A DNA stretch of 64,000 nucleotides from Halichondria panicea (lineage: Eukaryota > Porifera > Demospongiae > Suberitida > Halichondriidae): the NCBI RefSeq assembly GCF_963675165.1, contig NC_087382.1, positions 1,054,001-1,118,000 of the forward strand. The letters are read 5' to 3'. Position 1 is the stretch's first letter, and every line of letters begins with the position of its first letter. Below are positions 7,801 to 62,214 of this stretch, in pieces. The position numbers were made by a program, and so were the translations under genes. The notes beneath the pieces are model-generated. The model worked only from the letters and a program-made list of their open reading frames with translations. It was not told where the DNA came from and searched no databases.

Positions 7801-8630
7801 AAGCATAAATGGGATAACCATTGTTACTGACAATATTCATTCCAGTGAATGTTACATTTGATTGCAAAATGTTCAAACTGGCCATGTTATTAGTAATGTC
7901 AGTGTTGTTGATGGACACACGGCCTGAGTAAATACTAATCGCTCCACCAGTGTCATCAGCTCTGTTGTTTGTCAGCTCACTGTTGGAGATGGACACACTG
8001 CCTGAGCCAACAACAATCGCTCCACCATCGTTAGCACTGTTGTTTGTCAGCTCACTGTTGGAGATGGACACACTGCCTGAGTCAACAACAATCGCTCCAC
8101 CAACTCTATTAGCTCTGTTGTGTGTCAGCTCACTGTTGGAGATGGACACACTGCCTGAGTAAACACTAATCGCTCCACCAGTGTCATCACCTCTGTTGTT
8201 TGTCAGCTCACTGTTGGAGATGGACACACTGCCTGAGTCAACATTAATCGCTCCACCATAATAGTCAGCACTATTGTGTGTCAGCTTACTGTTGGAGATG
8301 GACACACTGCCTGAGCCAACACTAATCGCTCCACCATTCTGAGAAGCTTTGTTATTTGTGAAGTTACACCGAGTGATCACTACAGTACTAGATACCACTT
8401 CTACTGCTCCTCCACTCTCAGCACTGTTATAGTTTAACTCTGTGTTGTTGATCATCAGAGAGTTGTTTGATTGAATGTAAACTGCACCTCCATCATTTCT
8501 AGTGAACACACTATTTGTTATATACACATCATCAGCCTCAACGTGCAGTGCTCGACCAGTGTTGTTCATAAAGAGAGTGCTCTCAATTGTTGCAGTTTGA
8601 GTATTAGTAATCTTAACGAGGTGGTTCGTA
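4872..8630 (-). pseudogene. Beta-helix / multi-membrane-span surface protein, copy 1 (broken)
   Basis: This matches the open copy at 15478-19848 along most of its length but in several frames. Order on the minus strand: beta-helix coils with repeated VSISNSELTNN units (8569-7790 and 7747-7202), a stalk (7260-6371), the first membrane span (around 6280), middle spans (6083-5901) and the last spans plus tail (5855-4872). An in-frame TGA near 5900 replaces a tyrosine codon of the open copy, and there are frame changes near 6100, 6380, 6950, 7200-7260 and 7750-7790. The first 175 or so codons, including the signal peptide, are missing; homology stops at about 8630 where a small transposon begins. 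The last block (4872-5855, ending in PIRNEV) keeps what looks like the ancestral C-terminus. The 3' flank is homologous to the other copies as far as about 4760. Confidence 0.85.
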
Positions 8631-8631
8631 T

Positions 8632-8967
8632 ATCTTCTAATTTATCGGACAGCAAAAAATAATTATTTTGGAAATTGTCCAGGTATAATTGGAACAGACT
8701 TTTATAGAGCATGCGAAGTGTCCGGAATAATTAGAACAAGCAAGCAGCTGCATGCGAACTAGCTAAGTTTAATAGAACAGGGTATATACGACTGAATAAG
8801 TCTTACTTGCCGTCATGAATGGTAACTCAACTTTTCAAGGTATTGTCCAGATATTTAGAACAAATGTAATATTAAAGTACTGGAGTGTCCGTTGTATTAG
8901 AACAACGAAAATTTCCCAAAAGAGTGTCCGGGGTAATTAGAAGTGTCCGATAAGTATGTATGAATGT
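8632..8967. mobile_element. Small MITE with clustered GTCCG/TTAGAAC motifs
   Basis: It is bounded by TCTTCTAATTTATCGGACA on the left and the imperfect inverse TGTCCGGGGTAATTAGAAG on the right. Inside, the short motif GTCC..(A/T-rich)..TTAGAAC or TTGGAAC occurs at least four more times. It sits exactly where copy 1 of the beta-helix gene loses homology. Confidence 0.55.
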
Positions 8968-15398: not shown

Positions 15399-15477
15399 TA
15401 GTACATAACCATTCTTGGAGCAGCATAATTGTTATAACATACGTACCAACACCATCCTCAATACATGCACCTCAGAT

Positions 15478-18400
15478 ATGCTGTCTAGAAACATTCTCAG
15501 CTGGTTAGTGCTACTGTCCCTAGCTACTGTTACCAGGAGTGAGCACTATCACATTGTGCCAGTGGATTCAACCGACTTGTGTAATGACTATCGAAATGGA
15601 ACTTGTTTTACTCTCGAGCAGCTTGTTCAAACAGACCTGTTATCTGATGGAGTCAATCTCACCTTGAGCTTTCTACCTGGAGATCATGTGTTAACTGAGC
15701 AGTTACTGATTCGTAACTTCTCACATGTGCAAATCACCGGCCAGAACACAAGTACAACTGTAGTTGGATTCCATAGCAATGGTACGATACGTTTTGTTAG
15801 TATTACCAAATTGAATATTGAACGCTTGGGTTTTATTGGAGCGAATGTTGGATCACAAAACTCACATCAAGGTTTAACCATTGACGGTGCCAATGATGTG
15901 TACATCAAAGACTGCAACTTTTCGGACTTTGTATTACTCAATCAAGCGGAAAATCACCTCGTTAAGATTGCTAATACTCAAACTGCAACAATTGAGAGCA
16001 CTCTCTTTATGAACAACATTGGTCAGGCACTGCACGTTGAGGCTGATGATGTGTACATAACAAGTAGTGAGTTCACTAGAAATGATGGAGGTGCAGTTGA
16101 CATTAAATCAAACAACTCTCTGATCAACAAAACAGAGTTCAACTATAACAGTGCTGAGAGTGGAGGAGCAGTAGAAATGTTATCTGGTACTGTAGTAATC
16201 GCTTGGTGTAACTTCACAAATAACAAAGCTTCTCAGAATGGTGGAGCCATTTATGTTGGCTCAGGTAGTGTGTCCATCTCCAATAGTGAGCTGATAAACA
16301 ACAGTGCTGACTATGGTGGTGGAGGAGCGATTGTTGTTGTTTCTGGTAGTGTGTCCATCTCCAATAGTGAGCTGACAAACAACAGTGCTGACTATGGAGG
16401 TGGAGCGATTGTTGTTGACTCAGGTAATGTGTCTATCTCCAACAGTACGCTGAAATACAACAGAGCTAACTATGGTGGAGCGATTCTTGTTTTCTCAGAT
16501 AGTAGCGTGACCATCTCCGACAGTGAGATAACAAACAGCGTTGCTAAAGAGGGTGGAGTAATTCATGTCTCCCGATCTTCCACCTTGATCATCAACACTA
16601 GAATTGCTAATAACATGGGCAGTTTGAACATTTCACAGTCAAATGTAACATTCACTGGAAGGAATATTGTCAGTAACAATAGTCGTCCCATTTATGCTTT
16701 CAATAGTCGAATCGAGTTTAATGGACCTGCAATGCTGAGTAACAATTGTGGTGTGTTTGGTGGAGCTATCAGCGCTGACCAGAGTGAAATATACATTAAC
16801 ACAGAAGGAGTGATCATCACCAACAACACAGCTACCTCTGGAGGAGGGATACTTCTGAGAGAAAGTACACTCCTTGTAAAAGAGCCAATAAAGATCTATC
16901 ACAACACAGCACAGAATGGTGGAGGGATATATGTATATTCCAGTAGAGTTGAGTTCCAATCAGTGCCGATGGTAGGTGCATATGGTCAGCCACTTCCTCC
17001 AAATAGACAGAGTGAGATTGCTCAAAACATTGCTGAGAATAATGGTGGAGGTATTTATGCATCATCTTCAACTATTGAAGTTGTAACTCAATCGCACGTC
17101 AACATTGACTCAAACACAGCTAAAGCTAGTGGAGGTGGAGTGTATCTACAGCAAAGATCGAGAATGTACCTATTTAAAACGGATGTAGAATATAGGACTC
17201 AGGATCCGTTAGTCAAGTTAATGATTAAGAAGAACTTGGCTCAGTACGGAGGGGGAATATTTGTGGCAGATGACACAGACAGTGGTGCCTGCAAAGTAGG
17301 GGCCACAGAAATTGATGCAACCTACATCATTTTTGCTGACTGCTTCATTCAAACAATTAGTCTGTATGGGTATTACTATGATCCAAACTATTTCAACACA
17401 TTCATGACTAACAACACAGCCACTCAGTCAGGAGCAGACATCTACGGAGGTATGTTGGACAGGTGTACAATAAGTTCAAGTGCTGAATATCAAATTTCTT
17501 CAAATACATTGGACTACATAAATAACACTATAAAATCCTCCACCGAATTATTAATTTCTTCTAGGCCCCTGCAGGTGATGTTTTGTAACTATTCACAAAA
17601 TTACTATGTTTCTACAAAAAAGGGACACACATTTAAAATCAGTGTTATGGCTGTTGACCAAGTTGGAAATCCAGTGTATGCTGCAATTCGCAGTTCTGTT
17701 ATCACTGAGAGTGGAGTTGGTCGTCTCAAAGAAGGACAGACAGAACAAGAAGTTGGCAATCAGTGCACAGAATTAGAGTACAATGTATTCTCACAAGACA
17801 GCTCTGCTCAAGTGGAACTCTATGCTGAGGGTCCATGCAACAATTTGGGAATTTCAAGACAACTTTTTAATATTTCTTTTCTACCCTGCACATGCCCTAT
17901 TGGACTCAAACCAATTCAGTCAGATATTGAGTGCAAGTGTGACTGTGATCCAGACTTACTACCATATCAGATAACAGACTGTTCTGAAGAAAATGGGACC
18001 ATAACGCTGGAAAGAAATAGTAACATATGGATAGAATTCATAAATACTACCAACGGAACAGGGTATGTTGTTAGTAACTGTGTATTTGACTATTGCGCAC
18101 AAGGGCCAGTGAAGATCAGTCTAAGCAACCCTGACAAACAGTGTGCCTACAATCAAAGTGGTGTCTTATGTGGTGAATGTAAACCAGGATTCGGTCTTTT
18201 GTTGGCTACGTCACGGTGTGAAGAATGTTCTGATATTCACCTTCTTCTACTTCTTCTACTAATATCATTTGCGCTGGCTGGTATATTGCAAGTTGCCTTA
18301 ATTCTTGTGCTCGACATCACTATAGCAACTGGGAATATTCATGGTTTCATTTTTTACGTCAATATGCTAGCAGCTAATAGAGCAATTTTCTTACCAAATT

Positions 18401-19848
18401 TAAACAACTTTTTAACAATTTTCATATCATGGGTGAATCTTGATTTAGATATTGGGACGTGCTTTTACAATGGAATGACCTCTAAAGCAAAACTGCTCAT
18501 TCAACTTGTCTTCCCAGCTTACCTGTTTATTCTGATGTTCTTAATAATTATTTTGAGTAAACACTTTAAATCATTTGCAAAACTCCTCTCCAACAAGAAC
18601 CCAGTTGCTGCCCTAGGCACACTCGTTCTACTCTCTTATTCCAAACTCTTACGGTTTATCATTGCTGCACTACAATACAGGGTCTTGGATTATCCTGACG
18701 GTTCAACCAAGACTGTTTGGCTGTATGATGGAAATGTGCAATACTTTACTTCAGATTTCATCCCTCAGTTTGTTGCTGCAGCCATTATCTTCATTGCCGG
18801 TGGATTGTTCACTGTAGTGCTCTTCTTTGGACAATGGTTTCCACGCTGCTCCAAGGTTATGATATGGACCAAGAACACGAAGTACACTGGCTTCATGGAC
18901 ACATTCCATGCTCCATTCACTCCCAAGCATCGCTACTGGGTGGGACTGCTCCTCTTTGCTCAGATTGCTCAAAATATAGGAGCTGCCCTGGCTACAAACA
19001 CTTCTCTACCTGTGTTATCATCTGGGTGTATTGCATTCGGACTGATATCATTGAACAATCGAGTGTATAAAAAGCAACTTAATGAATATTTTGAAGCGTT
19101 GTTTCTGCTTAATCTTGGCATTCTATCTATTGGAACCTCCTACGTTGTTGAAACACAACAACAGCAAGAAACACTGGCCAATGTTTCAATGTCCATAGCT
19201 TTCATTATTTTTGTGACAATAATTATCTACCATTCTCACCACTTTATACTGAAGAAGACCAAAACATGGCTCAAGATAAAAGAACTCGTTAAGAGTATCA
19301 AAAGAATTTTACGAGCTGGTGCTGCAGACATGAGACTTCAACAAGCTAACAATGGCCGAGAAATATATCAGCTAGTAGCCGATGAAAACGATGACGATGA
19401 ATTACTCCAAGTAGTAGACGACTATGAACAAAGAGACCCAGTGGATCCACCTTACACTGATGGAGCAGAAGAAGAAGCTGACCCTGATCGCTACATCACT
19501 CCTCCCATCATCAGACCAGCCACGAGGCCGGACCAGCTGAGATTACCCTACATGGATGAGCTAGCCCCCCTCACCACAGAGGACTACAGACCAGCCCCTC
19601 CCCTAGCCTCCTTCTCAAGGCCTAAACAATTAGGCCTGCTACTAGCCTCGATTCAAGGCCGATCGTATTTTAATCGGCCTGGAATCGAGGCTAGCCTGCT
19701 ACTGACTGCTTGCGCATGCGCAAAATTATTGGATAATATTCCCGTAATGTTTCCCATTAAACTGAATTTTTACCCGAATTATATCCTGAATAACATATAC
19801 AGACAAAGAATACTCTTCATAAAGTCAGACACAGAGCTATATAGCTAG
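15478..19848 (+). CDS. Beta-helix / multi-membrane-span surface protein, copy 2 (open)
   Basis: A 1456-residue intronless frame. The ATG at 15478 begins a clear signal peptide (MLSRNILSWLVLLSLATVTR); upstream codons in frame have no ATG. Residues about 22-175 form an N-terminal domain; about 175-600 are right-handed beta-helix coils of roughly 24-25 residues (GGAI/GGGI turns, VSISNSEL, many N-glycosylation sites). About 700-915 is a stalk, partly cysteine-rich (CTCPIGL, CKCDCDPD, CGECKPGFG). Eight or nine hydrophobic spans follow from about 920 (IHLLLLLLLISFALAG) to 1257, with the conserved loop FHAPFTPKHRYWVGLLL. The tail is acidic with tyrosine/proline motifs (DDYEQRD, DPPYTDG). Likely a surface recognition or sensing protein; the function is unknown and the membrane domain may be channel-like. 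The last 80 or so codons come from a transposon inserted at 19604. Confidence 0.85.
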   Translation: MLSRNILSWLVLLSLATVTRSEHYHIVPVDSTDLCNDYRNGTCFTLEQLVQTDLLSDGVNLTLSFLPGDHVLTEQLLIRNFSHVQITGQNTSTTVVGFHSNGTIRFVSITKLNIERLGFIGANVGSQNSHQGLTIDGANDVYIKDCNFSDFVLLNQAENHLVKIANTQTATIESTLFMNNIGQALHVEADDVYITSSEFTRNDGGAVDIKSNNSLINKTEFNYNSAESGGAVEMLSGTVVIAWCNFTNNKASQNGGAIYVGSGSVSISNSELINNSADYGGGGAIVVVSGSVSISNSELTNNSADYGGGAIVVDSGNVSISNSTLKYNRANYGGAILVFSDSSVTISDSEITNSVAKEGGVIHVSRSSTLIINTRIANNMGSLNISQSNVTFTGRNIVSNNSRPIYAFNSRIEFNGPAMLSNNCGVFGGAISADQSEIYINTEGVIITNNTATSGGGILLRESTLLVKEPIKIYHNTAQNGGGIYVYSSRVEFQSVPMVGAYGQPLPPNRQSEIAQNIAENNGGGIYASSSTIEVVTQSHVNIDSNTAKASGGGVYLQQRSRMYLFKTDVEYRTQDPLVKLMIKKNLAQYGGGIFVADDTDSGACKVGATEIDATYIIFADCFIQTISLYGYYYDPNYFNTFMTNNTATQSGADIYGGMLDRCTISSSAEYQISSNTLDYINNTIKSSTELLISSRPLQVMFCNYSQNYYVSTKKGHTFKISVMAVDQVGNPVYAAIRSSVITESGVGRLKEGQTEQEVGNQCTELEYNVFSQDSSAQVELYAEGPCNNLGISRQLFNISFLPCTCPIGLKPIQSDIECKCDCDPDLLPYQITDCSEENGTITLERNSNIWIEFINTTNGTGYVVSNCVFDYCAQGPVKISLSNPDKQCAYNQSGVLCGECKPGFGLLLATSRCEECSDIHLLLLLLLISFALAGILQVALILVLDITIATGNIHGFIFYVNMLAANRAIFLPNLNNFLTIFISWVNLDLDIGTCFYNGMTSKAKLLIQLVFPAYLFILMFLIIILSKHFKSFAKLLSNKNPVAALGTLVLLSYSKLLRFIIAALQYRVLDYPDGSTKTVWLYDGNVQYFTSDFIPQFVAAAIIFIAGGLFTVVLFFGQWFPRCSKVMIWTKNTKYTGFMDTFHAPFTPKHRYWVGLLLFAQIAQNIGAALATNTSLPVLSSGCIAFGLISLNNRVYKKQLNEYFEALFLLNLGILSIGTSYVVETQQQQETLANVSMSIAFIIFVTIIIYHSHHFILKKTKTWLKIKELVKSIKRILRAGAADMRLQQANNGREIYQLVADENDDDELLQVVDDYEQRDPVDPPYTDGAEEEADPDRYITPPIIRPATRPDQLRLPYMDELAPLTTEDYRPAPPLASFSRPKQLGLLLASIQGRSYFNRPGIEASLLLTACACAKLLDNIPVMFPIKLNFYPNYILNNIYRQRILFIKSDTELYS

Positions 19849-20235: not shown

Positions 20236-20312
20236 CCCCTCCCCCTACAAGAGTTAACCATTGTCCTGTTGTTACACACACAGAAATAGGCCCCATACGC
20301 AATGAAGTGTGA
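20236..20312 (+). other. Displaced ancestral C-terminus of the beta-helix gene
   Basis: This stretch matches the last codons of copies 1 and 3 (RVNH..., ending in IGPIRNEV and stop TGA 20310-20312). In copy 2 it is cut off from the gene by the transposon at 19604-20235 and is no longer translated unless splicing removes the insert. Confidence 0.8.
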
Positions 20313-20738
20313 ACTGTCTCATTTAGCTGAGGTACTCTTAAAATAACATCTGTAGGCATTGTTAGTTACAACAGTTACTGTCATTAGCAATTTGTTATGC
20401 TACTAGTTTAAAGAGAGAGGTTAAAGATAAACATGGTTGTGCTAATATGTAATAATTATTTTAAATGTTGGATAATTATGCCGGCTATATACCACCCATA
20501 ATTATACATAGATTACATTATGAGGTCAATTACCACAATATGATAAAAATATGAAAAATAAAGCAGTAATTGTGCTGAATAAATCATAATGACCACAAGA
20601 TAAAAGTCTACTGTCTAGAGTAAAATATCAATTTCAAGACCATCAAATGAATACACTCAGTCATTTTGTGCATGTCCTGTTCTCAACAATCCACAACACT
20701 AATACTACTATAGTTCTATATCCTCTCGAATTTCATGT
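20313..20738 (+). other. 3' flank of beta-helix copy 2, holding the empty site of the LTR element
   Basis: Homologous to 57022-57154 plus 62210-62440. The sequence GCTAATATGTAATAATTATT near 20440-20460 is the paralogous uninterrupted target of the LTR retrotransposon at 57155. Confidence 0.75.
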
Positions 20739-20980
20739 CAGCCGGTTCTCATTGTAGCGTGGGAGGGAGAAAACCGTCTGGTGACGTAGTACTCTTTTCT
20801 GCCGTCGGACGGAATGTTGGTAGAGTACCACAATAATGTAAGATAGCTTTCAAGAATACAACTGGTGTGCATGAAATTGTGGGTTCTCTAGAGGATGATT
20901 ACATTCTTGACTGACAGAACGTTCTGCCTAGTGTTACCAGACGGTTCTCTCCATCCCACGCTACAATAAGAGCCAGCTGG
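20739..20980. mobile_element. MITE with about 45-bp terminal inverted repeats
   Basis: The left end CAGCCGGTTCTCATTGTAGC is matched inverted by GCTACAATAAGAGCCAGCTG on the right; inside, ACCGTCTGGT pairs with ACCAGACGGT. A diverged, right-truncated copy is in the duplicated flank at 62440-62680, so the insertion predates the duplication. Confidence 0.75.
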
Positions 20981-27064: not shown

Positions 27065-27788
27065 GCTGTGTCAGCATTTTATTATTCTATAGTGTACAAC
27101 ATGGTGTCTTGTGTAGTGACTCCAATAGTGTCTTTTAGTGTCCAATAGTGTCTTTTAGTATCTTGTTGTTCAGTAGTGTCCGTGGTGTCTATGGTGTCCT
27201 ATAGTGTCTATGGTGTCCTACATGCAGCTTCTCAGTGGCGTTCTGTATAGTGCCCGTGGTGTCTATGGTGTCCTATAGTGTCTATGGTGTCCTACAGCTT
27301 CTCAGTGGCGTTCAGTAGTACCCGTGGTGTCTATGGTGTCCTACAGTTTATCAGTGGTGTTCTGTAGTGTGTCCAACAGTTTCTCAGTGGTGTTCTGTAG
27401 TGTGTCCAACAGTTTCTCAGTGGTGTTCTGTAGTGCCCATGGTGTCTATGGTGTCCTATAGTGTCTATGGTGTCCAACACTTTGTCAATGTTGTTCTGTA
27501 GTGCCTGTGGTGTCCTATAGTGTCCAACAGTTTCTCATTGGTGTTCTGTAGTGCCCGTGGTGTCCTATAGTGTCAACAGTTTCTCATTGGTGTTCTGTAG
27601 TACCCGTGGTGTCTATGGTGTCCAACAATTTCTCAGTGGTGTTCTGTAGTACTAGCCTGTGGTGTCCTATAGTGTCTATGGTGCGTCCTACAGTTTCTCA
27701 GTGGTGTTATGCAGTGCCCGTGGTGTCTATGGTGTCCTACAGTTTCTCATTGGTGTTCAGTAGTGCCTGTGGTGTCTATGGTGTCCTA
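27065..27788 (+). repeat. Minisatellite array, left block
   Basis: Imperfect tandem units of about 45-60 bases built from GTGTCTATGGTGTCCTA, CAGTTTCTCAGTGGTGTTC and TGTAGTGCCCGTG. Continues at 28772-28930 and recurs inverted at 29270-29720. No coding sense is evident. Confidence 0.9.
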
Positions 27789-28771
27789 AGCCCCGTTTAC
27801 ACGAGGCCTTTAAATAATAGTTATAGACTGAGTCCAAGGTCTCTATGGGGTTTTGAGACCTGAAGGCCCGAGGCTGTAGCATCTCGAGCGTAGCGAGGGT
27901 GCTACTAAGGGCCTGAGGGTCTCAAAACTCCATAGTGACCGTTGACGAGGCCTATAACTGGTTTAGAATAGTGCTAAGCAAGCTAGGCTATATTAACACA
28001 AAGAAGACTCTGAAACCAAGAGTTTCTACAAGCCTCAAGCAACGTTAAAGCTTTGCTCTGGCTAGTCTACATAAAAAACTCACATTGATGAAGGCAGTTT
28101 CTGTTTCTTGAGAATCACGCATTGCAAATAAAAAGTTGCTATTGTCATAGTAGTTAGCTCTGCACTAGAGCACTAGCTATTGTAGCTGCAAGAGAGAGAT
28201 AAAAGCTGCAAAGCGGCACTGCAGAACGCAAAACTTTAAAAAAAATTAATTTTTAATGATGCACTGTATCATCGTTACTATGACTTCAACATAAACTGTG
28301 TGATGTTGCCATGTTCCATACATGTTAATCTTGACATCATCTTGCCTGTAGGTATAATCAGTATAATAGACCTACTTAGAAGACCTCAGGTCCATAAGTG
28401 AAATAATGGACCTCTCAGTGACCTATCAGATTGCAGTATTACTACAAGCATTTTCTAATCAGGGTTGGAATCCGGATTAAACCTAACCGCGTTCGTGTAA
28501 ACGGCCCTTATCCGGGTTCTAATCCGGATTAGCCAACCCACCTTTGGAGGTGGTTCAGATTGTGTCAGAAGCGGTTTAGCTGTGAGTAAGCACAAAGGGA
28601 TAATTCTGAGGTGTTGTACATGTTCGTGGGTGTTTCTAGAGTAAGCCTGTAGCTTCCTATCAGTCCAATGTTTGCGCAAATGATCATTTTACTATGCCCA
28701 CTACTCAGAAAAATCTGACCCGGATTCAATCCGGATTCGACCCGCATTATAGGGGTCGTGTAAACGGGGCT
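27789..28771. mobile_element. 983-bp element with AGCCCCGTTTACACGA ends
   Basis: Perfect 16-base terminal inverted repeats (AGCCCCGTTTACACGA / TCGTGTAAACGGGGCT) flanked by CTA on both sides, interrupting the minisatellite. A 3-base duplication is compatible with PIF/Harbinger-type elements. It is non-coding and contains a long internal palindrome at about 27822-27955. Confidence 0.75.
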
Positions 28772-28930
28772 CTATAGTGTCTATGGTGTCCCTACAGTTT
28801 CTGCAGTGCCCGTGGTGTCTACGGTTTCCTATAGTGTCTATGGTGTCCTACAGTTTCTCAGTGGTGTTCTGTAGTGGTGTCTATGGTGTCCTACAGTTTC
28901 TCAGTGGCGTTCAGTAGTGCCTGTGGTGTT
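28772..28930 (+). repeat. Minisatellite array, continuation
   Basis: Same units as 27065-27788, separated from them by the 983-bp insertion. Confidence 0.85.
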
Positions 28931-29269
28931 GACTATTCTAAGGCCAATTATTGTAGAAAAACTACCAACAAATGTTACATTCAACACAAAGACAGGAAAT
29001 GAAAAAATGTTGTACGAGAAGTCAAGCAAACTTCCTTATACGCAAGATAAATAGAGAAACTCTTGTCACCATGGACAAAAACATAACTGCATTCAATTGC
29101 ATGCACATTTGCTAGTAAACTTAACCATCACTTCCTTTTGTTTATGAAATTCATGCACATAATTATAAAACTCAGAAATAAAATCGTTGTTTTAAATGTG
29201 GTCTTATACAGTTACCTAGATACACATGGAGATCGCTGCGCAGCATACTACTGGAGAAACTCTCCACAG

Positions 29270-29720
29270 GCACTACTGAACACCACAGACAATAGTAGGA
29301 CACTATTGGGCACCATAGGCACTATTGAACAACACTATATTATAGGACACCATAGACGACACCACAGGCACTACTGAACACCACTGAGAAACTGTATAGG
29401 ACACTATAGACAACACGGGAAGTATTGAACACCACTGAGAAACTGAAGGACACCATATATAGACACTATAGGACACCATAAACACCATGGGCACTACTGA
29501 ACGCCATTGAGAAACTAGGACACCATAGACACTATAGGACACCTTATAGACACCACGGGCACTACTGAACGCCACTGAGAAACTGTAGGACACCATAGAC
29601 ACCACGGGCACTACAGAACACCACTGAGAAACTGTAGGACACCGTAGACACTATAGGACACCATAGACACCACGGGCACTACTGAACGCCACTGAGAAAC
29701 TGTAGGACACCATAGAGAAA
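29270..29720 (-). repeat. Minisatellite array, inverted block
   Basis: The inverse of the 27 kb units (CACCATAGACACCACGGGCA, CTGAGAAACTGTAGGACACC), about nine copies. Together with the left blocks it forms a long imperfect inverted repeat. Confidence 0.9.
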
Positions 29721-52743: not shown

Positions 52744-55700
52744 ATGCTGTCTAGAAACATTCTCAGCTGGTTAGTGCTACTGACCCTATAGCTACTGTTA
52801 CCAGGAGTGAGCACTATCACATTGTGCCAGTGGATTCAACTGACTTATGTAATGACTATCGAAATGGAACTTGTGTCACTCTCGAGCAGCTTGTTCAAAC
52901 AGACCTGTTATCTGGTGGAGACAAACTCACTTTGAGCTTTCTATCTGGTGATCATGTATTAACTGAGCAGTTATTGATTCGTAACTTCTCATACGTGCAA
53001 ATCACTAGTGGGAACACAAATACAGCTGTAATTGGATTCCATAGCAATGGTGCGATACGTTTTGTTATTATTACCAAGCTGAATATTGAACGCTTGGATT
53101 TTATTGGAGCGAATGTTGAACCACAAAACTCACATCAAGGATTGATCATTGACGGTGCCAATGATGTGGACATCAAAGACTGTTATTTTTCGGACTTTGT
53201 ATTACTCAATCAGGTGGAAACCCACATAGTTAAGATTGCTAATACTCAAACTGTAACAATTGAAAGCACTCTCTTTATGAACAACACTGGTCGGGCACTG
53301 CACGTTGAGGCTGATGATGTGTACATAACAAATAGTGTGTTCACTAGAAATGATGGAGGTGCACTTTACAGTGAATCAAATAACACACTGATCAACAACG
53401 CGGAGTTCAACTATAACAGTGCTAGGAACGGAGGAGCATTAAAATTGGTATCTGGTACTGTAGTAATCACTTGGTGTAACTTTACAAATAACACAGCTTC
53501 TCAATAATTATTATGGTGGAGCGATTTGTGTTGACTCAGGTAATGTGTCTATCTCCAACAGTACGCTGAAATACAACAGAGCTAACTATGGTGGAGCGAT
53601 TGGTGTTGACTCAGGTAATGTGTCTATCTCCAACAGTACACTGAAATACAACAGAGCTAACTATGGTGGAGCGATTCTTGTTGACTCAGGTAATGTGTCT
53701 ATCTCCAACAGTACGCTGAAATACAACAGAGCTAACTATGGTGGAGCGATTTGTGATGACTCAGGTAATGTGTCTATCTCCAACAGTACGCTGAAATACA
53801 ACAGAGCTAACTATGGTGGAGCGATTTTTGTTTTCTCAGGTAGTAGCGTGACCATCTCTGACAGTGAGATAACAAACAGCGTTGCTAAAGAGGGTGGGGT
53901 AATTGATGTCTCCCGATCTTCCACCTTGATCATTAACACTAGCATTGCTAATAACATGGGCAGTTTGAACATTTCACAGTCAAATGTAACATTCACTGGA
54001 AGGAATATTGTCAGTAACAATAGTCGTCCCATTTATGCTTTCAATAGTCGAATCGAGTTTAATGGACCTGCAACGCTGAGTAACAACCATGGTGTGTTTG
54101 GTGGAGCTATCAGCGCTGACCAGAGTAAAATATGCATTAACACAGAAGGAGTGATCATCACCAACAACACAGCTACCTCTGGAGGAGGGATACTTCTGAG
54201 AGAAAGTACACTCTTTGTAAATGAGCCAATAAAGATCTATCACAACACAGCACAGAATGGTGGAGGGATATATGTATATTCCAGTAGAGTTGAGTTCCAA
54301 TCAGTGCCGATGGTAGGTGCATATGGTCAGCTACTTCCTCCAAATAGACAGAGTGAGATTGCTCAAAACATTGCTGAGAATGGTGGAGGTATTTATGCAT
54401 CATCTTCAACTATTGAAGTTGTAACTCAATCGCACGTCAACATTGACTCAAACACAGCTAAAGCTAGTGGAGGTGGAGTGTATCTACAGCAAAGATCGAG
54501 AATGTACCTATTTAAAACGGATGTAGAATATAGGACTCAGGATCTGTTAGTCAAGTTAATGATTAACAACAACTTGGCTCAGTACGGAGGGGGAATATTT
54601 GTGGCAGATGACACAGACAGTGGTGCCTGCAAAGTAGGGGCCACAGAAATTGATGCAACCTACATCATTTTTGCTGACTGCTTCATTCAAACAATTAGTC
54701 TGTATGGGTATTACTATGATCCAAACTATTTCAACACATTCATGACTAACAACACAGCCACTCAGTCAGGAGCAGACATCTACAGAGGTATGTTGGACAG
54801 GTGTACAATAAGTTCAAGTGCTGAATATCAAATTTCTTCAAATACATTGGACTACATAAATAACACTATAAAATCCTCCACCGAATTATTAATTTCTTCT
54901 AGGCCTGTTCAGGTGATGTTTTGTAACTATTCACAAAATTACTATGTTTCTACAAAAAAGGGACACACATTTAAAATCAGTGTTATGGCTGTTGACCAAG
55001 TTGGAAATCCAGTGAATGCTGCAATTCGCAGTTTTGTTGTAACTGACAGTCGAGTTGGTCGTCTCAAAGAAGGACAGGCAGAACAAGAAGTTGGCAATCA
55101 GTGCACAGAATTAGAGTACAATGTATTCTCACAAGACAGCTCTGCTCAAGTGGAACTCTATGCTGAGGGTCCATGCAACAATTTGGGAATTTCAAGACAA
55201 CTTTTTAATATTTCTTTTCTACCCTGCACATGCCCTATTGGACTCAAACCAATTCAGTCAGATATTGAGTGCAAGTGTGACTGTGATCCAGACTTACTAC
55301 CATATCAGATAACAGACTGTTCTGAAGAAAATGGGACCATAACGCTGGAAAGAAATAGTAACATATGGATAGAATTCATAAATACTACCAACGGAACAGG
55401 GTATGTTGTTAGTAACTGTGTATTTGACTATTGCGCACAAGGGCCAGTGAAGATCAGTCTAAGCAACCCTGACAAACAGTGTGCCTACAATCGAAGTGGT
55501 GTCTTATGTGGTGAATGTAAACCAGGATTCGGTCTTTTGTTGGCTACGTCACGGTGTGAAGAATGTTCTGATATTCACCTTCTTCTACTTCTTCTACTAA
55601 TACCATTTGCGCTGGCTGGTATATTGCAAGTTGCCTTAATTCTTGTGCTCGACATCACTATAGCAACTGGGAATATTCATGGTTTCATTTTTTACGTCAA

Positions 55701-57021
55701 TATGCTAGCAGCTAATAGAGCAATTTTCTTACCAAATTTAAACAACTTTTTAACAATTTTCATATCATGGGTGAATCTTGATTTAGATATTGGGACGTGC
55801 TTTTACAATGGAATGACCTCTAAAGCAAAACTGCTCTTTCAACTTGTCTTCCCAGCTTACCTGTTTATTCTGATGTTCTTAATAATTATTTTGAGTAAAC
55901 ACTTTAAATCATTTGCAAAACTCCTCTCCAACAAGAACCCAGTTGCTGCCCTAGGCACACTCGTTCTACTCTCTTATTCCAAACTCTTACGGTTTATCAT
56001 TGCTGCACTACAATACAGGGTCTTGGATTATCCTGACGGTTCAACCAAGACTGTTTGGCTGTATGATGGAAATGTGCAATACTTAACTTCAGATTTCATC
56101 CCTTTTCATCAGTTTGTTGCAGCCATTATCTCCATTGCCGGTGGATTGTTCACTGTAGTGCTCTTCTTTGGACAATGGTTTCCACGCTGCTCCAAGGTTA
56201 TGATATGGACCAAAAACACAAAGTACACTGGCTTCATGGACACATTCCATGCTCCATTCACTCCCAAGTATCGCTACTGGGTGGGACTGCTCCTCTTTGC
56301 TCAGATTGTTCAAAATATAGTAGCTGCCATGGCTCCAGACACTTCTCTCCCTGTGCTATCATCTGGGTGTATTGCATTCGGACTGATATCATTGAACAAC
56401 CGAGTGTATAAAAAGCAACTTAATGAATATTTGAAGCGTTGTTTCTGCTTAATCTTGGCATTCTATCTATTGGAACCTCCTACGTTGTTGAAACACAACA
56501 ACAGCAAGAAACACTGGCCAATGTTTAAATGTCTATATATAGCTTTCATTATTTTTGTGACAATAATCATCTACCATTCTCACCACTTTATACTGAAGAA
56601 GACCAAAACATGGCTCAAGATAAAAGAAGTCGTTAAGAGTATCAAAAGAATTTTATGAGCTGGTGCTGCAAACATGAGACTTCAACGAGCTAACAATGGC
56701 CGAGAAATGTATCAGCTGGTAGCCGATGAAAACGATGACGATGAATTACTCCAAATAGTAGACGACTATGAACAAAGAGACCCAGTGGACCCACCTTACA
56801 CTGATGGAGCAGAAGAAGAGAAGCTAACCCTGATCGCTACATCACTCCTCCTATCATCAGACCAGCCACAAGGCCGGACCAGCTGAGATTACCCTACATG
56901 GATGAGCTAGCCCCCCTCATGCACCACAGAAGACTACAGACCAGCCCCTCCCCCTACAAGAGTTAACCATTGTCCTATTGTTACACACACAGAAATAGGC
57001 CCCATACGCAATGAAGTGTGA
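52744..57021 (+). pseudogene. Beta-helix / multi-membrane-span surface protein, copy 3 (broken)
   Basis: Very close to copy 2 along its length. Lesions: two extra bases in the signal peptide give TAG soon after ATG 52744; frame is lost at about 53504 (TAA after NNTASQ); one base is missing near 56431 with frame regained near 56530, leaving about 30 altered residues; CGA to TGA at about 56656; further small insertions near 56818 and 56918. Two long frames remain (52824-53507, 227 codons, and 53545-56658, 1037 codons). The beta-helix has four near-identical 75-base coils. The tail still ends in PIRNEV-type sequence. No membrane-domain deletion is seen, so the loss is recent. Confidence 0.85.
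53512..53811 (+). repeat. Four 75-bp beta-helix coil repeats
   Basis: Units start at 53512, 53587, 53662 and 53737 and differ at only a few positions (mostly in the codons after GGAI). Each encodes one 25-residue coil with VSISNSTLKYNRANYGG. Copy 2 has this unit once. Confidence 0.9.
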
Positions 57022-57149: not shown

Positions 57150-57154
57150 GTAAT
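57150..57154. repeat. Target site duplication of the LTR element, left
   Basis: GTAAT directly before the left LTR; the same five bases follow the right LTR at 62210-62214. Confidence 0.9.
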
Positions 57155-57439
57155 TGTAACGTAGTACTCTTGACTATAGGAGAATTGACTTTTAATAGCT
57201 GTCTTGAACAATAAAGAACACGCACGAATAACACAACTTAGACACAAAACTGAACTGTTTTAAATACAAAACAAAACAGTTCTAGAACAAACCAGAACAA
57301 TACATAGAATAGTCCAGAATTGCTTAGTGTAAGAATACTCTAGAACAACTAAGATATTTCTAGTCCATAACACAGCACATAGTTCAACTTGACCACAGAT
57401 TGAGTGTTTGTGGTTAGTGGCTACTAGGAGTACGCCACA
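57155..57439 (-). repeat. 3' LTR of the Gmr1-like retrotransposon
   Basis: 285 bases, apparently identical to 61925-62209. In element orientation it begins TGTGGCGTAC and ends ACGTTACA (TG...CA). The purine run AGGAGGGAGGGA lies directly before it in element orientation (57440-57451) and would serve as polypurine tract. Confidence 0.95.
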
Positions 57440-60400
57440 TCCCTCCCTCCTAAAAGGGGGCCAGCTCGTGACAGTCCATCAGCATTGCCATTCGAAACTC
57501 CTCGACGATGGGTGATTTCCAGTTGATAGGGCTGAATAGCCAGCGCCCAACGCGTCAAACGGGCATTCGCGTTCTGCATCTTGTGTAACCAGGCGAGAGG
57601 TTGGTGGTCCGTCTGTACTTCAATTTTCCGACCATAAAGGTATGTATAGAAGATCTTAAGAGCCCACACAACCGCCAAGCACTCCTTTTCTATTGTTGCG
57701 TAATTCCTTTCCCTTGGCTGCAACTTCCGACTTGCAAATGCGATTGGGTTTTCTTGTCCTTCCGAATCTCGCTGACTCAAAACCGCCCCAAGGCCTCGTT
57801 CTGATGCATCAGTTTGTAACAGAAACTGTTTGTTGGGATCGAATACCTCTAAGACAGGATGCTTCAACAGAGTTTCCTTCAAGGCTATGAAAGACTGATC
57901 ACATTCACCGGTCCAGATAACCTTTTCTGGTTTCTTTTTTCGAGTGAGGTCCGTTAACGGCACTGCAATATCCGCAAAGTTGGGGGTGAATTTCCTATAG
58001 TATCCTACTAGTCCGAGGAAAGCTCGTACATCTTTCTTGGTCTGTGGACGCGGATACTCTGCTACTGCTTGCAGCTTCTGTGGATCGGGCCTAACTTTGC
58101 CACCACCAATCACATGTCCCAAATAACGAACTTCCCGTCGTCCAAACTGACATTTTCTCGGTTTCAGGGTCAACTTGGCAGCTTGCAGACGTTCTAACAC
58201 CACCTGCAAGTGTTGTAGGTGCTCTTCCCAGGATTTGCTGTACACAACCAGATCATCGATATAGCAACCTGCAAATTCTTCGCATCCTTCCAGCACTCGA
58301 TTCATTGTCCTCTGGAAAGTGGCTGGAGCATTGTGCAACCCGAAAGGCATCACTTGAAACTCGTACAGGCCAAACGGTGTTGTAAAAGCTGACTTCTCTT
58401 TAGAAGATTCCTCAAGGGGTATTTGCCAATAACCTTTCGCTAAGTCCATGGTGGTGATGTATCTAGCAGGTCCAATGTTGTCAAGTAGCTCCTCAATGCG
58501 TGGCATAGGATAAGCGTCAAAGCGAGCCACTTTGTTAAGCTTTCTATAATCCACACAAAACCGCACAGATCCATCTTTCTTGCCAACCATTACAATAGGT
58601 GAAGCCCATGGACTGGTAGAAGGTCGAATGACATCGGCTTCAAGCATCTTGTGGATCTCTTCTTTCACTACCTCCCTCCTTGAGTAAGGTACACGGTAGG
58701 GTCTCTGTTGTATTGGAGTCTCGTCCGCCACAAATATCTCGTGCTCTGCAATCGTTGTCCTTCCCGGGGCTGGACCACACACTGCGTCAAACTCTTGCAC
58801 CAGTGACAACAGTTGCTTTCGCTCTTCTGGATTTAAGTCAGGGGTCTGGATCTCGGTCACATCGAACAGTGTCTCTTCAGGTTCCCACAAACTCAGGTTG
58901 GTCGACTCTTCCTCGTCACACTCGTTCCCTTCCTCCATTATCGACATCAGATTTGAGACTGGTTGCGTTGGACACTTCCACAGCTTCAAGAGGTTGATGT
59001 GGTATATCTTCTTCTTCTGCCTCCGCCCTGGTGTAGCTACTTCATAGTCCACTGGAGTAACAGCACGAAGTACTTTATAGGGACCAACCCATTCCAACTT
59101 GAGCTTATTCTCATCTTTGGGTAGCAAAACCAAGACTTGATCACCGGCCTTCAGCTCTCGTTTTTTGGTACCCTTGTCATAGTACCTCTTCTGCTTTTGC
59201 TGGGCTTTGCTTGTAGTCTCCTGCACAATCTCCATCATTTCTTCCAAGCGATCTCGCATCTGGACCACATGAGCAATTACTGGGAACTCTGGTGACCTCT
59301 CCTCTGTCCATCCCTCTCGTATTACGTCGAGTGGTCCTCGCACTCTATGCCTGTACAACAGCTCAAACGGTGAGAATCCAGTGCTCTCCTGTGGGACTTC
59401 TCTATAAGAAAAGAGCAGATATGGAAGGTACTCGTCCCAATCTTTCTGGTTCCGGCTCGTAAACTTCCGAAGCATTGACTTCAAAGTTGCGTTAAAACGC
59501 TCCACCAGCCCATCGGTTTGAGGGTGGTATGGAGTTGTTCGGATCCTGGTGATCTGCAGAGCCTGGTACATCTCGTCTAGCAATGAAGACATAAAGTTAG
59601 TTCCTTGGTCAGACAGCACCTCCTCAGGAACTCCAACTCGAGTAAAGAGCAAAAGTAGCTCTCGTGCAACACGTGTAGCTTCCACACTTGGCAATGGAAT
59701 TGCCTCTGGGTATCGAGTGGCATAGTCACAGATAGTAAGGATATACCGATTCCCTCGTTGCGTCCTTGGCAGTGGCCCAACAATATCCATTGCTATCCTT
59801 GAAAAAGGCTTCTGAATCAATGGCATTGAGACCAGAGGAGCACGAGCTGGCCTCCTTCCACGACTTCTTTGACAAACTTCACAGGTAGTACAATACTCCG
59901 TTACCTCCTTGAAAACACCAGGCCAATAGTATCTCTGGAGTACTCGGTTTCGGGTTTTAGTGACGCCTAGATGGCCAGCTGTAGGCACATCATGCGCCAG
60001 TCGTAATACCAGTTGTCGGCACTGAGTCGGTAGCACCAACTGCTCGACTGCCTGCACTCCGTCTTTTCCTCGTTTTCTCGGTTGCCAGTGACGATACAGC
60101 AGTCCATCCTTCCTATAGAAGAAAACATTCTCTCCTTCGGTTCTATCTTCGGGTTGGGAACTTGCATAATCACGAACTTTTACTAGCGTTGCATCGCTTT
60201 CCTGCCATGCTTGAATTTGTTCTTTCGAAGCATCTAAGGGGGACACTGGTTCTGCATTCATCTCCTCTTCTAACGTAGAGGTATTTTCTGCCATGTCCTC
60301 CCTCCTAAGATTTTCATGCTCTTCAGAGGCAAGGTTTGCCTCTGGAACTTCTAGCTTCAACGATTGATCAAATAGCTCTGACAATATGGCTTGCTCGTCC

Positions 60401-61716
60401 AGATCCATCAGATCATCCATCGATTTCGATTCTCGTATCTTCTTTTGAGACCTAGTCTCCACCATGTATCCGGTATCTGAAGACTTCCATCCACTTCTGA
60501 TATCGTAGAGGTCTCTTCCAAGGAGTACTGGTACCGGTAGGCTAGGGGCAATAGCAACGTTTGCTTTCCTGGTATGGCCTCCTAAAGCGAGCTCTACCAT
60601 TGCTGTAGGATACTCTACCGTATCTCCATGCACGCACAGAACAGCCACCGTTTCTGCCTTACTGATCTTGGAAGAATCCACACTGTTGGCACTCACCATC
60701 GTTCGACTGCATCCAGAGTCCAAAAGCATCTGAACAGACTTTCCTCCAACTTTTCCCCACTTGAGGTACTTCTCAGTTCCTTTCGGCCAGGCCACATCTT
60801 CACAAGCTTTTCCATTGAAGGCAGGCTTGGAGTCAGCTTTCCCTTGTGACAGGCTTCGCTTGGGGCAATTGTACTTTAGATGACCCCACTGGTGACAATG
60901 AAAGCATTGCTTTTCTCCGGCAGCTTTGACCTTGGTTCTTGGCTCTGTACGAAATCCATTCCTTTTATGTGGTGCTCTTGTTCCCTGAGTTTCCACGGCT
61001 GGTGTCCCTGGAGAGGATAGGGGCTTCCTTGTCCCAAAGGGCTGGTCTTTACCCTTCCTGGCCAGAGTGTAGTCCTCTGCAAGTTTTGCCAGCTCCTCCA
61101 ATGACTTTGGCTGTCTCTCTCTCAGCCAGACAGTTAGACCTTCGGGCATTCCCCAGAGAGCCTGCTCCATGACAACAAGTTCCTTCATTGGCATTGTTGA
61201 GTCTTTGCACCACTTGTCAAAGTGGTTTGTGATGCGCCATAGCCACTCTCTGTAAGATTCTTCTGGCTTCTTCCGGTCTTCCCTGAATCTTCTGCGATGT
61301 GTTTCTTGGTTGACGTCATACCGATGCAAGATTGCCTCCTTCACTTTCTTGTAATCCTGGGCTTCTGTAGCATCTAGAGCAGCATAGGCAGCTTGTGCTC
61401 TACCGGTCAACAGTCCCGCCAGCTGGACAGCCCACGCATTCTCCGGCCAATCATGTTGGGTGGCAACCCGCTCAAATGTCTCCAAAAAGTTCTCGATATC
61501 GTCAGTCTCTTCTAATTTCTTGAAAACAGGCTTAGGCAATTTATGCCTTGTCTCTTCACGGTGCCTCACAGCTTCTTGATGTCGCAGCTCCTCCATCTCC
61601 TGGCGATAGGCACGCTGCTCTTCCTGCTGAGTTTGTAACATCTCTAGCAGAACTCTTTGCTGAGCTTGATGCTGCTCCGCCATCATCCTCTGCTGCTCCT
61701 GGAGCATCATTAACAT
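57424..61716 (-). CDS. Gag-Pol polyprotein with integrase before reverse transcriptase
   Basis: 1430 codons in one frame, ATG at 61714-61716. Order: glutamine-rich coiled coil (1-55); capsid with SCAN-like C-terminal part (about 140-220: EQALWGMPEGLTVWLRER, LAEDYTLAR); zinc knuckle C271, C274, H279, C284; protease DSG at 333-335; integrase zinc finger H575, H582, C612, C615; integrase core D644, D703, E739 (D-35-E spacing); GPY/F module near 878; reverse transcriptase (FCVDYRKLN, MPFGLHNAPATFQ, CYIDD at 1151-1155); RNase H (D1303, E1343, D1370, D1413). The last codons lie in the 3' LTR. Integrase upstream of reverse transcriptase with gypsy-type sequences defines the Gmr1-like group. No stop or frameshift separates gag from pol, so how their ratio is set is unclear. 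All catalytic residues are present. Confidence 0.95.
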   Translation of the reverse strand: MLMMLQEQQRMMAEQHQAQQRVLLEMLQTQQEEQRAYRQEMEELRHQEAVRHREETRHKLPKPVFKKLEETDDIENFLETFERVATQHDWPENAWAVQLAGLLTGRAQAAYAALDATEAQDYKKVKEAILHRYDVNQETHRRRFREDRKKPEESYREWLWRITNHFDKWCKDSTMPMKELVVMEQALWGMPEGLTVWLRERQPKSLEELAKLAEDYTLARKGKDQPFGTRKPLSSPGTPAVETQGTRAPHKRNGFRTEPRTKVKAAGEKQCFHCHQWGHLKYNCPKRSLSQGKADSKPAFNGKACEDVAWPKGTEKYLKWGKVGGKSVQMLLDSGCSRTMVSANSVDSSKISKAETVAVLCVHGDTVEYPTAMVELALGGHTRKANVAIAPSLPVPVLLGRDLYDIRSGWKSSDTGYMVETRSQKKIRESKSMDDLMDLDEQAILSELFDQSLKLEVPEANLASEEHENLRREDMAENTSTLEEEMNAEPVSPLDASKEQIQAWQESDATLVKVRDYASSQPEDRTEGENVFFYRKDGLLYRHWQPRKRGKDGVQAVEQLVLPTQCRQLVLRLAHDVPTAGHLGVTKTRNRVLQRYYWPGVFKEVTEYCTTCEVCQRSRGRRPARAPLVSMPLIQKPFSRIAMDIVGPLPRTQRGNRYILTICDYATRYPEAIPLPSVEATRVARELLLLFTRVGVPEEVLSDQGTNFMSSLLDEMYQALQITRIRTTPYHPQTDGLVERFNATLKSMLRKFTSRNQKDWDEYLPYLLFSYREVPQESTGFSPFELLYRHRVRGPLDVIREGWTEERSPEFPVIAHVVQMRDRLEEMMEIVQETTSKAQQKQKRYYDKGTKKRELKAGDQVLVLLPKDENKLKLEWVGPYKVLRAVTPVDYEVATPGRRQKKKIYHINLLKLWKCPTQPVSNLMSIMEEGNECDEEESTNLSLWEPEETLFDVTEIQTPDLNPEERKQLLSLVQEFDAVCGPAPGRTTIAEHEIFVADETPIQQRPYRVPYSRREVVKEEIHKMLEADVIRPSTSPWASPIVMVGKKDGSVRFCVDYRKLNKVARFDAYPMPRIEELLDNIGPARYITTMDLAKGYWQIPLEESSKEKSAFTTPFGLYEFQVMPFGLHNAPATFQRTMNRVLEGCEEFAGCYIDDLVVYSKSWEEHLQHLQVVLERLQAAKLTLKPRKCQFGRREVRYLGHVIGGGKVRPDPQKLQAVAEYPRPQTKKDVRAFLGLVGYYRKFTPNFADIAVPLTDLTRKKKPEKVIWTGECDQSFIALKETLLKHPVLEVFDPNKQFLLQTDASERGLGAVLSQRDSEGQENPIAFASRKLQPRERNYATIEKECLAVVWALKIFYTYLYGRKIEVQTDHQPLAWLHKMQNANARLTRWALAIQPYQLEITHRRGVSNGNADGLSRAGPLLGGRDVAYS

Positions 61717-61902
61717 TGCTTGGGGATTAACCCTCCCCCTCCATTCGTCTGCACATCTTAGTGTTCTTCTTCCATCGTGGTTCTAAATACTGTCCCAGCT
61801 CTTGTCCTACTCCCACCTTGCTCAGTCATATGCCAGTACCAGTCACACTAAAGTCTTTCACACGGCTATCTCGGGCTTGTCGAGTAGAGTCAGGACAATT
61901 GA

Positions 61903-61922
61903 GAATCCCACCGCTGCCGCCA
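61903..61922 (-). promoter_or_regulatory. Primer-binding site, probably tRNA-Leu
   Basis: In element orientation it starts TGGCGGCAGCGG two bases inside the 5' LTR. From memory of animal tRNA-Leu(AAG) 3' ends it would pair over about 20 bases with one mismatch at the discriminator position. The tRNA identity is inference. Confidence 0.6.
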
Positions 61923-61924
61923 AC

Positions 61925-62209
61925 TGTAACGTAGTACTCTTGACTATAGGAGAATTGACTTTTAATAGCTGTCTTGAACAATAAAGAACACGCACGAATA
62001 ACACAACTTAGACACAAAACTGAACTGTTTTAAATACAAAACAAAACAGTTCTAGAACAAACCAGAACAATACATAGAATAGTCCAGAATTGCTTAGTGT
62101 AAGAATACTCTAGAACAACTAAGATATTTCTAGTCCATAACACAGCACATAGTTCAACTTGACCACAGATTGAGTGTTTGTGGTTAGTGGCTACTAGGAG
62201 TACGCCACA
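61925..62209 (-). repeat. 5' LTR of the Gmr1-like retrotransposon
   Basis: 285 bases, same as 57155-57439. Followed on the plus strand by the GTAAT duplication at 62210-62214. Confidence 0.95.
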
Positions 62210-62214
62210 GTAAT

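Follow-up and report, generated by a model that had tools for sequence, protein, structure and literature searches.

The locus described here raises the question of whether an LTR retrotransposon that carries gypsy-type proteins in the order of copia elements belongs to the Gmr1-like group, and whether that group reaches the sponges. To our knowledge, the Gmr1-like group, which was reportedly defined by Goodwin and Poulter in 2002, is the one gypsy group with a copia-like order. The window, which is the whole 64,000-nucleotide stretch of DNA that was analysed, is part of contig C6 of a 131-Mb host genome. Gmr1-like elements have been described from cod and Ciona (PMC8220671), and Gmr elements are reported from fish (PMC11117352) and frogs (PMC4131045). 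Two sources also cover protostomes, namely the element LGF3 of the annelid Lamellibrachia (PMC8220671) and elements of crustaceans, which are there termed the first of protostomes (PMC3587641). The initial annotation had noted that the group was first described from fish and other deuterostomes; members from protostomes were already reported in these two papers, so the step considered here is from bilaterians to sponges. A search of the open-licence literature found, among the papers listed, no report of Gmr1-like elements in sponges or cnidarians, and Repbase may list sponge members.

Structure and coding capacity of the element

The features of the element are collected in Table 1. The two LTRs, compared base by base, start with TGT, end with ACA and are identical at all 285 positions. 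Over 16 bases (61903-61918), the primer site is exactly complementary to the 3' part of tRNA-Leu(AAG) genes. A pattern search found the complement of these bases at 18 places in the genome, some of which are primer sites of other elements, and tRNA-Leu(AAG) genes were present at all five of the fetched places that lie away from elements. The last 16 bases of the gag-pol frame and its stop codon are within the 3' LTR, so there is no room downstream of pol for an envelope gene of the kind found in a retrovirus or errantivirus.

Table 1. Window coordinates of the retrotransposon, its parts and the paralogous empty site
Feature	Position	Strand	Basis or size
LTR retrotransposon, whole	57155-62209	-	5,055 bp
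5' LTR	61925-62209	-	285 bp
3' LTR	57155-57439	-	285 bp
Target-site duplication ATTAC (element orientation)	62210-62214	.	sequence read
Target-site duplication ATTAC (element orientation)	57150-57154	.	sequence read
Primer-binding site, tRNA-Leu type	61903-61922	-	after 5' LTR
Polypurine tract AGGAGGGAGGGA	57440-57451	-	adjoins 3' LTR, by reading
Single gag-pol frame, 1,430 aa	57424-61716	-	ORF
Gag capsid, SCAN-like part, aa 137-221	61054-61308	-	PF02023, E 3.3e-14; PDB matches
CCHC zinc knuckle, aa 271	60865-60906	-	motif
Aspartyl protease, aa 322-402	60511-60753	-	PF13650, PF13975, PF00077; DSG motif
Integrase zinc-binding domain H2C2, aa 563-619	59860-60030	-	PF17921
Integrase core through catalytic E739; rve match aa 636-732	59500-59811	-	PF00665; DDE motif
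Integrase C-terminal module with GPY motif, aa 878-911	58984-59091	-	PF22938; WVGPY
Reverse transcriptase RVT_1, aa 1045-1203	58108-58584	-	PF00078; YIDD; PDB best match Ty3
RNase H, aa 1268-1397	57526-57915	-	PF17917, PF17919
Paralogous host segment with empty insertion site (near 20,453)	20236-20934	+	alignment of joined flanks

Pfam matches place the domains of the frame in the order gag, protease, integrase, reverse transcriptase (RT) and RNase H. The protease features a DSG motif inside LLDSG at aa 331. The integrase has an HHCC motif that begins at aa 575 and a catalytic triad of D644, D703 and E739 with 35 residues between D703 and E739, and its C-terminal motif WVGPY is located at aa 876. 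The RT motif YIDD is located at aa 1152, and the RNase H motifs found are QTDAS, IEKECLA, QTDHQPL and GNADGLSR. All catalytic motifs that were searched for are present in the frame. This agrees with the initial annotation, which had read one open frame running from gag through protease, integrase and a GPY/F module to RT and RNase H, with both LTRs and the catalytic residues intact.

The enzymes are of the gypsy type. The integrase features an H2C2 domain and a GPY-type C-terminus, and the best PDB match is yeast Ty3 for both RT (E 7.9e-72) and integrase (E 3.1e-31). Ty3 differs from the sponge element in that its integrase follows RT, as determined from PDB chain positions. The phrase used in the initial annotation, gypsy proteins in copia order, is thus borne out by the H2C2 and GPY-type domains, the Ty3 matches and the position of the integrase before RT. 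A chromodomain after the integrase, as in chromoviruses, is absent from the 13 Pfam matches of the protein.

The gag protein matches the Pfam SCAN family (PF02023) with 52.9 bits against a cut-off of 27. The capsid piece matched four PDB sequences at E <= 1, PEG3 and zinc-finger proteins 24, 174 and 42, the best two with E values of 0.00013 and 0.00045 and the other two with 0.048 and 0.27; we take these entries to be SCAN structures. The SCAN domain of vertebrate zinc-finger genes is therefore similar in sequence to the sponge capsid, as seen with both Pfam and PDB; however, the vertebrate SCAN is a domain of host proteins, whereas the SCAN-like part of the sponge element belongs to a retroelement gag. 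According to two papers, which cite Emerson and Thomas 2011, the SCAN domain was derived from a Gmr1-like gag (PMC3424704, PMC4592553). In frogs, slightly more than half of the Gmr elements are reported to carry SCAN, which was found nowhere else (PMC4131045), so it is a marker of Gmr1 and not a definition. The SCAN-type capsid, which the initial annotation did not include, is an independent Gmr1 marker.

The element shares further features with known Gmr1-like elements. Integrase before RT and gypsy-type enzymes are common to both (PMC3587641, PMC8220671, PMC4131045, PMC11117352, PMC2582038), as are the single gag-pol frame described from fish and the SCAN-like capsid described from frogs. 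The fish elements have one gag-pol frame of 1,506-1,634 aa, a length of 6,058-6,465 bp and LTRs of 337-518 bp (PMC11117352), whereas the sponge element is shorter, with 5,055 bp and LTRs of 285 bp.

Insertion site and copies

The host segment around the element is a diverged duplicate of the window segment near 20.2-20.9 kb. When the flanks are joined without the element, they align through the junction to this paralogous segment with 572 of 744 columns identical and 116 gapped, and the target sequence is present there as a single copy. The LTR has 19 matches in the genome. Four copies, the window's included, are located on contigs C1, C4, C6 and C9, and their RT is 100% and their integrase 99.6-100% identical to those of the window element. 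LTR pairs were compared for the window copy and two others and are identical in each case (285/285, 278/278 and 278/278), so these three insertions are recent.

The window holds additional repeated sequences. A large gene with a repeat-rich ectodomain (YGGAI-type repeats) and a membrane part is present in three related copies, at 4872-8641, 15409-19848 and 52755-56658; one is long and open, while the others have frames that are split in the six-frame reading, and the retroelement is located just behind one copy. Related short tandem-repeat arrays (GTGTCTATGGTGTCC-like) are present at 27121-29716, with one orientation at about 27.1-28.9 kb and the opposite one at about 29.3-29.7 kb.

Domain order and capsid type across the host genome

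The RT and integrase pieces of the window element were searched over the genome and the order of the two domains was then scored by position. Among the matches listed, 140 RT matches comprise 28 that are integrase-first, 66 that are RT-first and 46 that were unscored, having no integrase match within 2.6 kb (midpoints). After merging of split matches, 26 integrase-first and 65 RT-first loci are obtained among the matches listed. The genome searches score the best candidates only and favour relatives of the query, so these counts are lower bounds with that bias and do not represent all gypsy elements. The order table used 113 of 169 integrase matches and omitted 37 listed ones from short high-copy or partial families; when these 37 were checked, one was near an RT match, on the opposite strand and at an element already scored as integrase-first. 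Additionally, nine pieces from neighbouring families, three integrase-first and six RT-first, were read by Pfam without the window query and gave the same two orders.

SCAN matches number at least 34 across the genome. Among the matches listed, a SCAN match is located upstream of 23 of the 28 integrase-first RT matches vs 0 of the 66 RT-first ones. The five integrase-first matches without SCAN come from four loci, and one of the five, C8:3010679, has a wider spacing of 1.9 kb. Twelve of the 34 SCAN matches have no RT match within 6.5 kb, and an integrase match is nearby in two of these twelve. Host genes captured from gag were at first considered for these RT-less matches, but the four of the twelve that were read by eye look like relics of elements.

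Some of these relics can be described individually. L009 and L010 encode gag, protease and H2C2 followed by an RNase H remnant, with L009 split over two frames and the integrase core and RT lost in both; L011 encodes gag and protease, which occupy different frames in L014. L009-L011 (G000:C4:3576925, C12:1074491, C6:100728) are three closely similar SCAN gag-protease copies and are perhaps a non-autonomous deletion family. Short integrase-like frames of two families with high copy number (~188 and ~182 aa, matching the integrase query at 33-218 and 133-232) were also found in the integrase search, with near-identical scores. Among the matches checked, these families have no listed RT match within 8 kb, and they may represent fossil fragments or DNA transposons that carry an integrase.

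Integrase-first elements in the host genome form four lineages, which are the window copies, L051, L052-L055 and L043-L050, and the RT of the last three is 55-61% identical to that of the window element. Among the RT-first elements, L058-L067 of the host genome are nearest to the window element in RT identity (50-52%), and they have the same set of pol domains. They differ from the window element in that their integrase follows RNase H and no SCAN match is present upstream.

Phylogeny of reverse transcriptase and integrase

Trees were made separately for RT and integrase. In the first trees, which used Ty3 as the outgroup and left out the broken or partial L056, L057 and L068, 17 integrase-first elements form one side of a branch with support of 96/95 for RT and 96/98 for integrase. 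In the second trees, 15 elements from outside the host genome were added, 11 near-duplicates were also omitted, and 15 of the 19 external loci were used (without L100 and L105-L107). The nine integrase-first elements are again together, with support of 100/99 for RT and 100/100 for integrase. The initial annotation had named the placement of RT and integrase in different gypsy clades outside Gmr1 as evidence against its reading; both sets of trees, which contain no named Gmr1 sequence, hold the integrase-first elements together for both domains.

The deeper placement of this clade differs between the two first trees. In the RT tree, all 14 of the host's own RT-first elements included are together beside the integrase-first clade (94/93), and in the integrase tree the clade joins the ten RT-first elements L058-L067, with L079-L082 outside (99/98); the root and the long branches of both are uncertain. 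Both domains keep the same integrase-first clade, and the change in order needs one step on either tree.

Searches outside the host genome found relatives by RT only. Viral contigs searched with integrase, capsid and RT alignments gave no confirmed relative, and genome contigs searched with the integrase alignment gave none. The RT alignment found 19 relatives in genome contigs filed under prokaryotes, which are probably eukaryotic contaminants. Both domains are present in 16 of the 19, and 15 of these 16 are RT-first. In L098, from a contig labelled as Kapabacteria, about 3 kb separate a gypsy RT from the gypsy integrase upstream of it, whereas the two domains of the window element are compactly spaced; L098 is perhaps two adjacent elements or another integrase-first arrangement. 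No gag match at E <= 1e-4 was obtained for any of the 19, and a SCAN search of six of the genomes from which seven named external loci come, run without a positive control, gave no match.

Identity of the host

Peptidase_C1 has 77 matches over the host genome. Eight small exons were read, and in two of them serine replaces the catalytic cysteine. These two exons matched 123 and 125 PDB sequences, with silicatein alpha ranking first in both cases, and one silicatein-like exon is located on the window's contig. Another cathepsin match of the genome is an ordinary cathepsin L. Silicatein is known from siliceous sponges, according to abstracts, and the silicatein-like exons suggest, at the level of sequence, that the host belongs to the sponge phylum, which strengthens the earlier designation of a probable sponge. 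For mitochondrial COX1, the genome yielded only a 64-codon nuclear fragment (L083, G000:C1:5280527-5280718), within which TGA stands for tryptophan and which is uninformative on the host.

Discussion

The element is best read as a complete, recently inserted Gmr1-like member of Ty3/gypsy in a siliceous sponge, with a probability of about 0.9, and this assignment from sequence rests on the domain order, the capsid and the clade structure. The Gmr1-like identity proposed initially gains support from the order, from the clade in both trees (which lack named Gmr1 sequences) and from the SCAN-type capsid. The Gmr1-like group is thereby probably extended to Porifera. What stands out is the sponge host and the clear association of domain order with capsid type; the element group itself is known.

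A Ty1/copia element with diverged enzymes would explain the domain order, which is that of copia, but its probability is practically negligible given that integrase and RT are of the gypsy type and that the copia gag_pre-integrs domain (PF13976) has no match in the gag-pol protein at E <= 0.01, though it is matched 31 times elsewhere in the host genome. It is also very improbable that the integrase-first order is an assembly chimera or a chance joining of pieces from two elements. The frame is continuous, and the single target-sequence copy at the empty paralogous site, together with the near-identical copies on other contigs, excludes the assembly chimera that the initial annotation had raised as an alternative; nor is the order due to chance, because it is common to the 26 merged loci. 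An independent origin of the order in a sponge gypsy lineage, only convergent with Gmr1, draws on the absence of a named Gmr1 sequence from both sets of trees and on the 50-52% RT identity to L058-L067 of the same genome. Convergence is nevertheless improbable, since the capsid is of the SCAN type that is tied to Gmr1-like gag in PMC3424704, PMC4592553 and PMC4131045, SCAN is upstream of none of the 66 RT-first matches listed, and two independent switches would need to meet the same capsid type.

A true Gmr1-like element could also have been transferred horizontally from a bilaterian into the sponge, in which case it would be uninformative on early animals. The identical LTR pairs of the window copy and two others, and hence their recent insertion, are in line with such a transfer. 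It is unlikely in view of the four integrase-first lineages, three of them at 55-61% RT identity to the window element, and of the broken copies and deletion derivatives in the genome; the lineages and these damaged copies indicate long residence or repeated entry and not one fresh arrival.

Judging from its anatomy and from established knowledge of LTR retrotransposons, the window copy is expected to follow the usual life cycle of such elements. The LTR promoter would give a full-length RNA, and the frame would give one polyprotein that is cut by its own protease. The SCAN-type capsid would pack the RNA, tRNA-Leu would prime the minus strand at the primer-binding site and the purine tract would prime the plus strand, after which the gypsy-type integrase would cut the target with a stagger of 5 bp and insert the copy. 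The switch in order would most simply be a single event in the clade's ancestor, in which the integrase moved to a position before RT within one gypsy lineage and no copia integrase was borrowed.

The split between sponges and other animals is more than 600 million years old. If descent was vertical, the Gmr1-like group and the SCAN-type capsid are suggested to be old in animals. On balance, it is slightly favoured that gypsy elements with the integrase first, and with them the SCAN-type capsid, are older than this split, that the switch was a single event of that age, and that the vertebrate-specific family of host SCAN domains goes back to a type of capsid that sponge retroelements already carried. 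Because the host carries both orders side by side, the origin of the switch is directly testable across sponges, cnidarians and ctenophores. If the element is indeed Gmr1-like, the copia-ordered gypsy group would extend from bilaterians to sponges, a single change of order without any exchange of domains could be tested within one genome, and the vertebrate SCAN domain would have a far deeper source.
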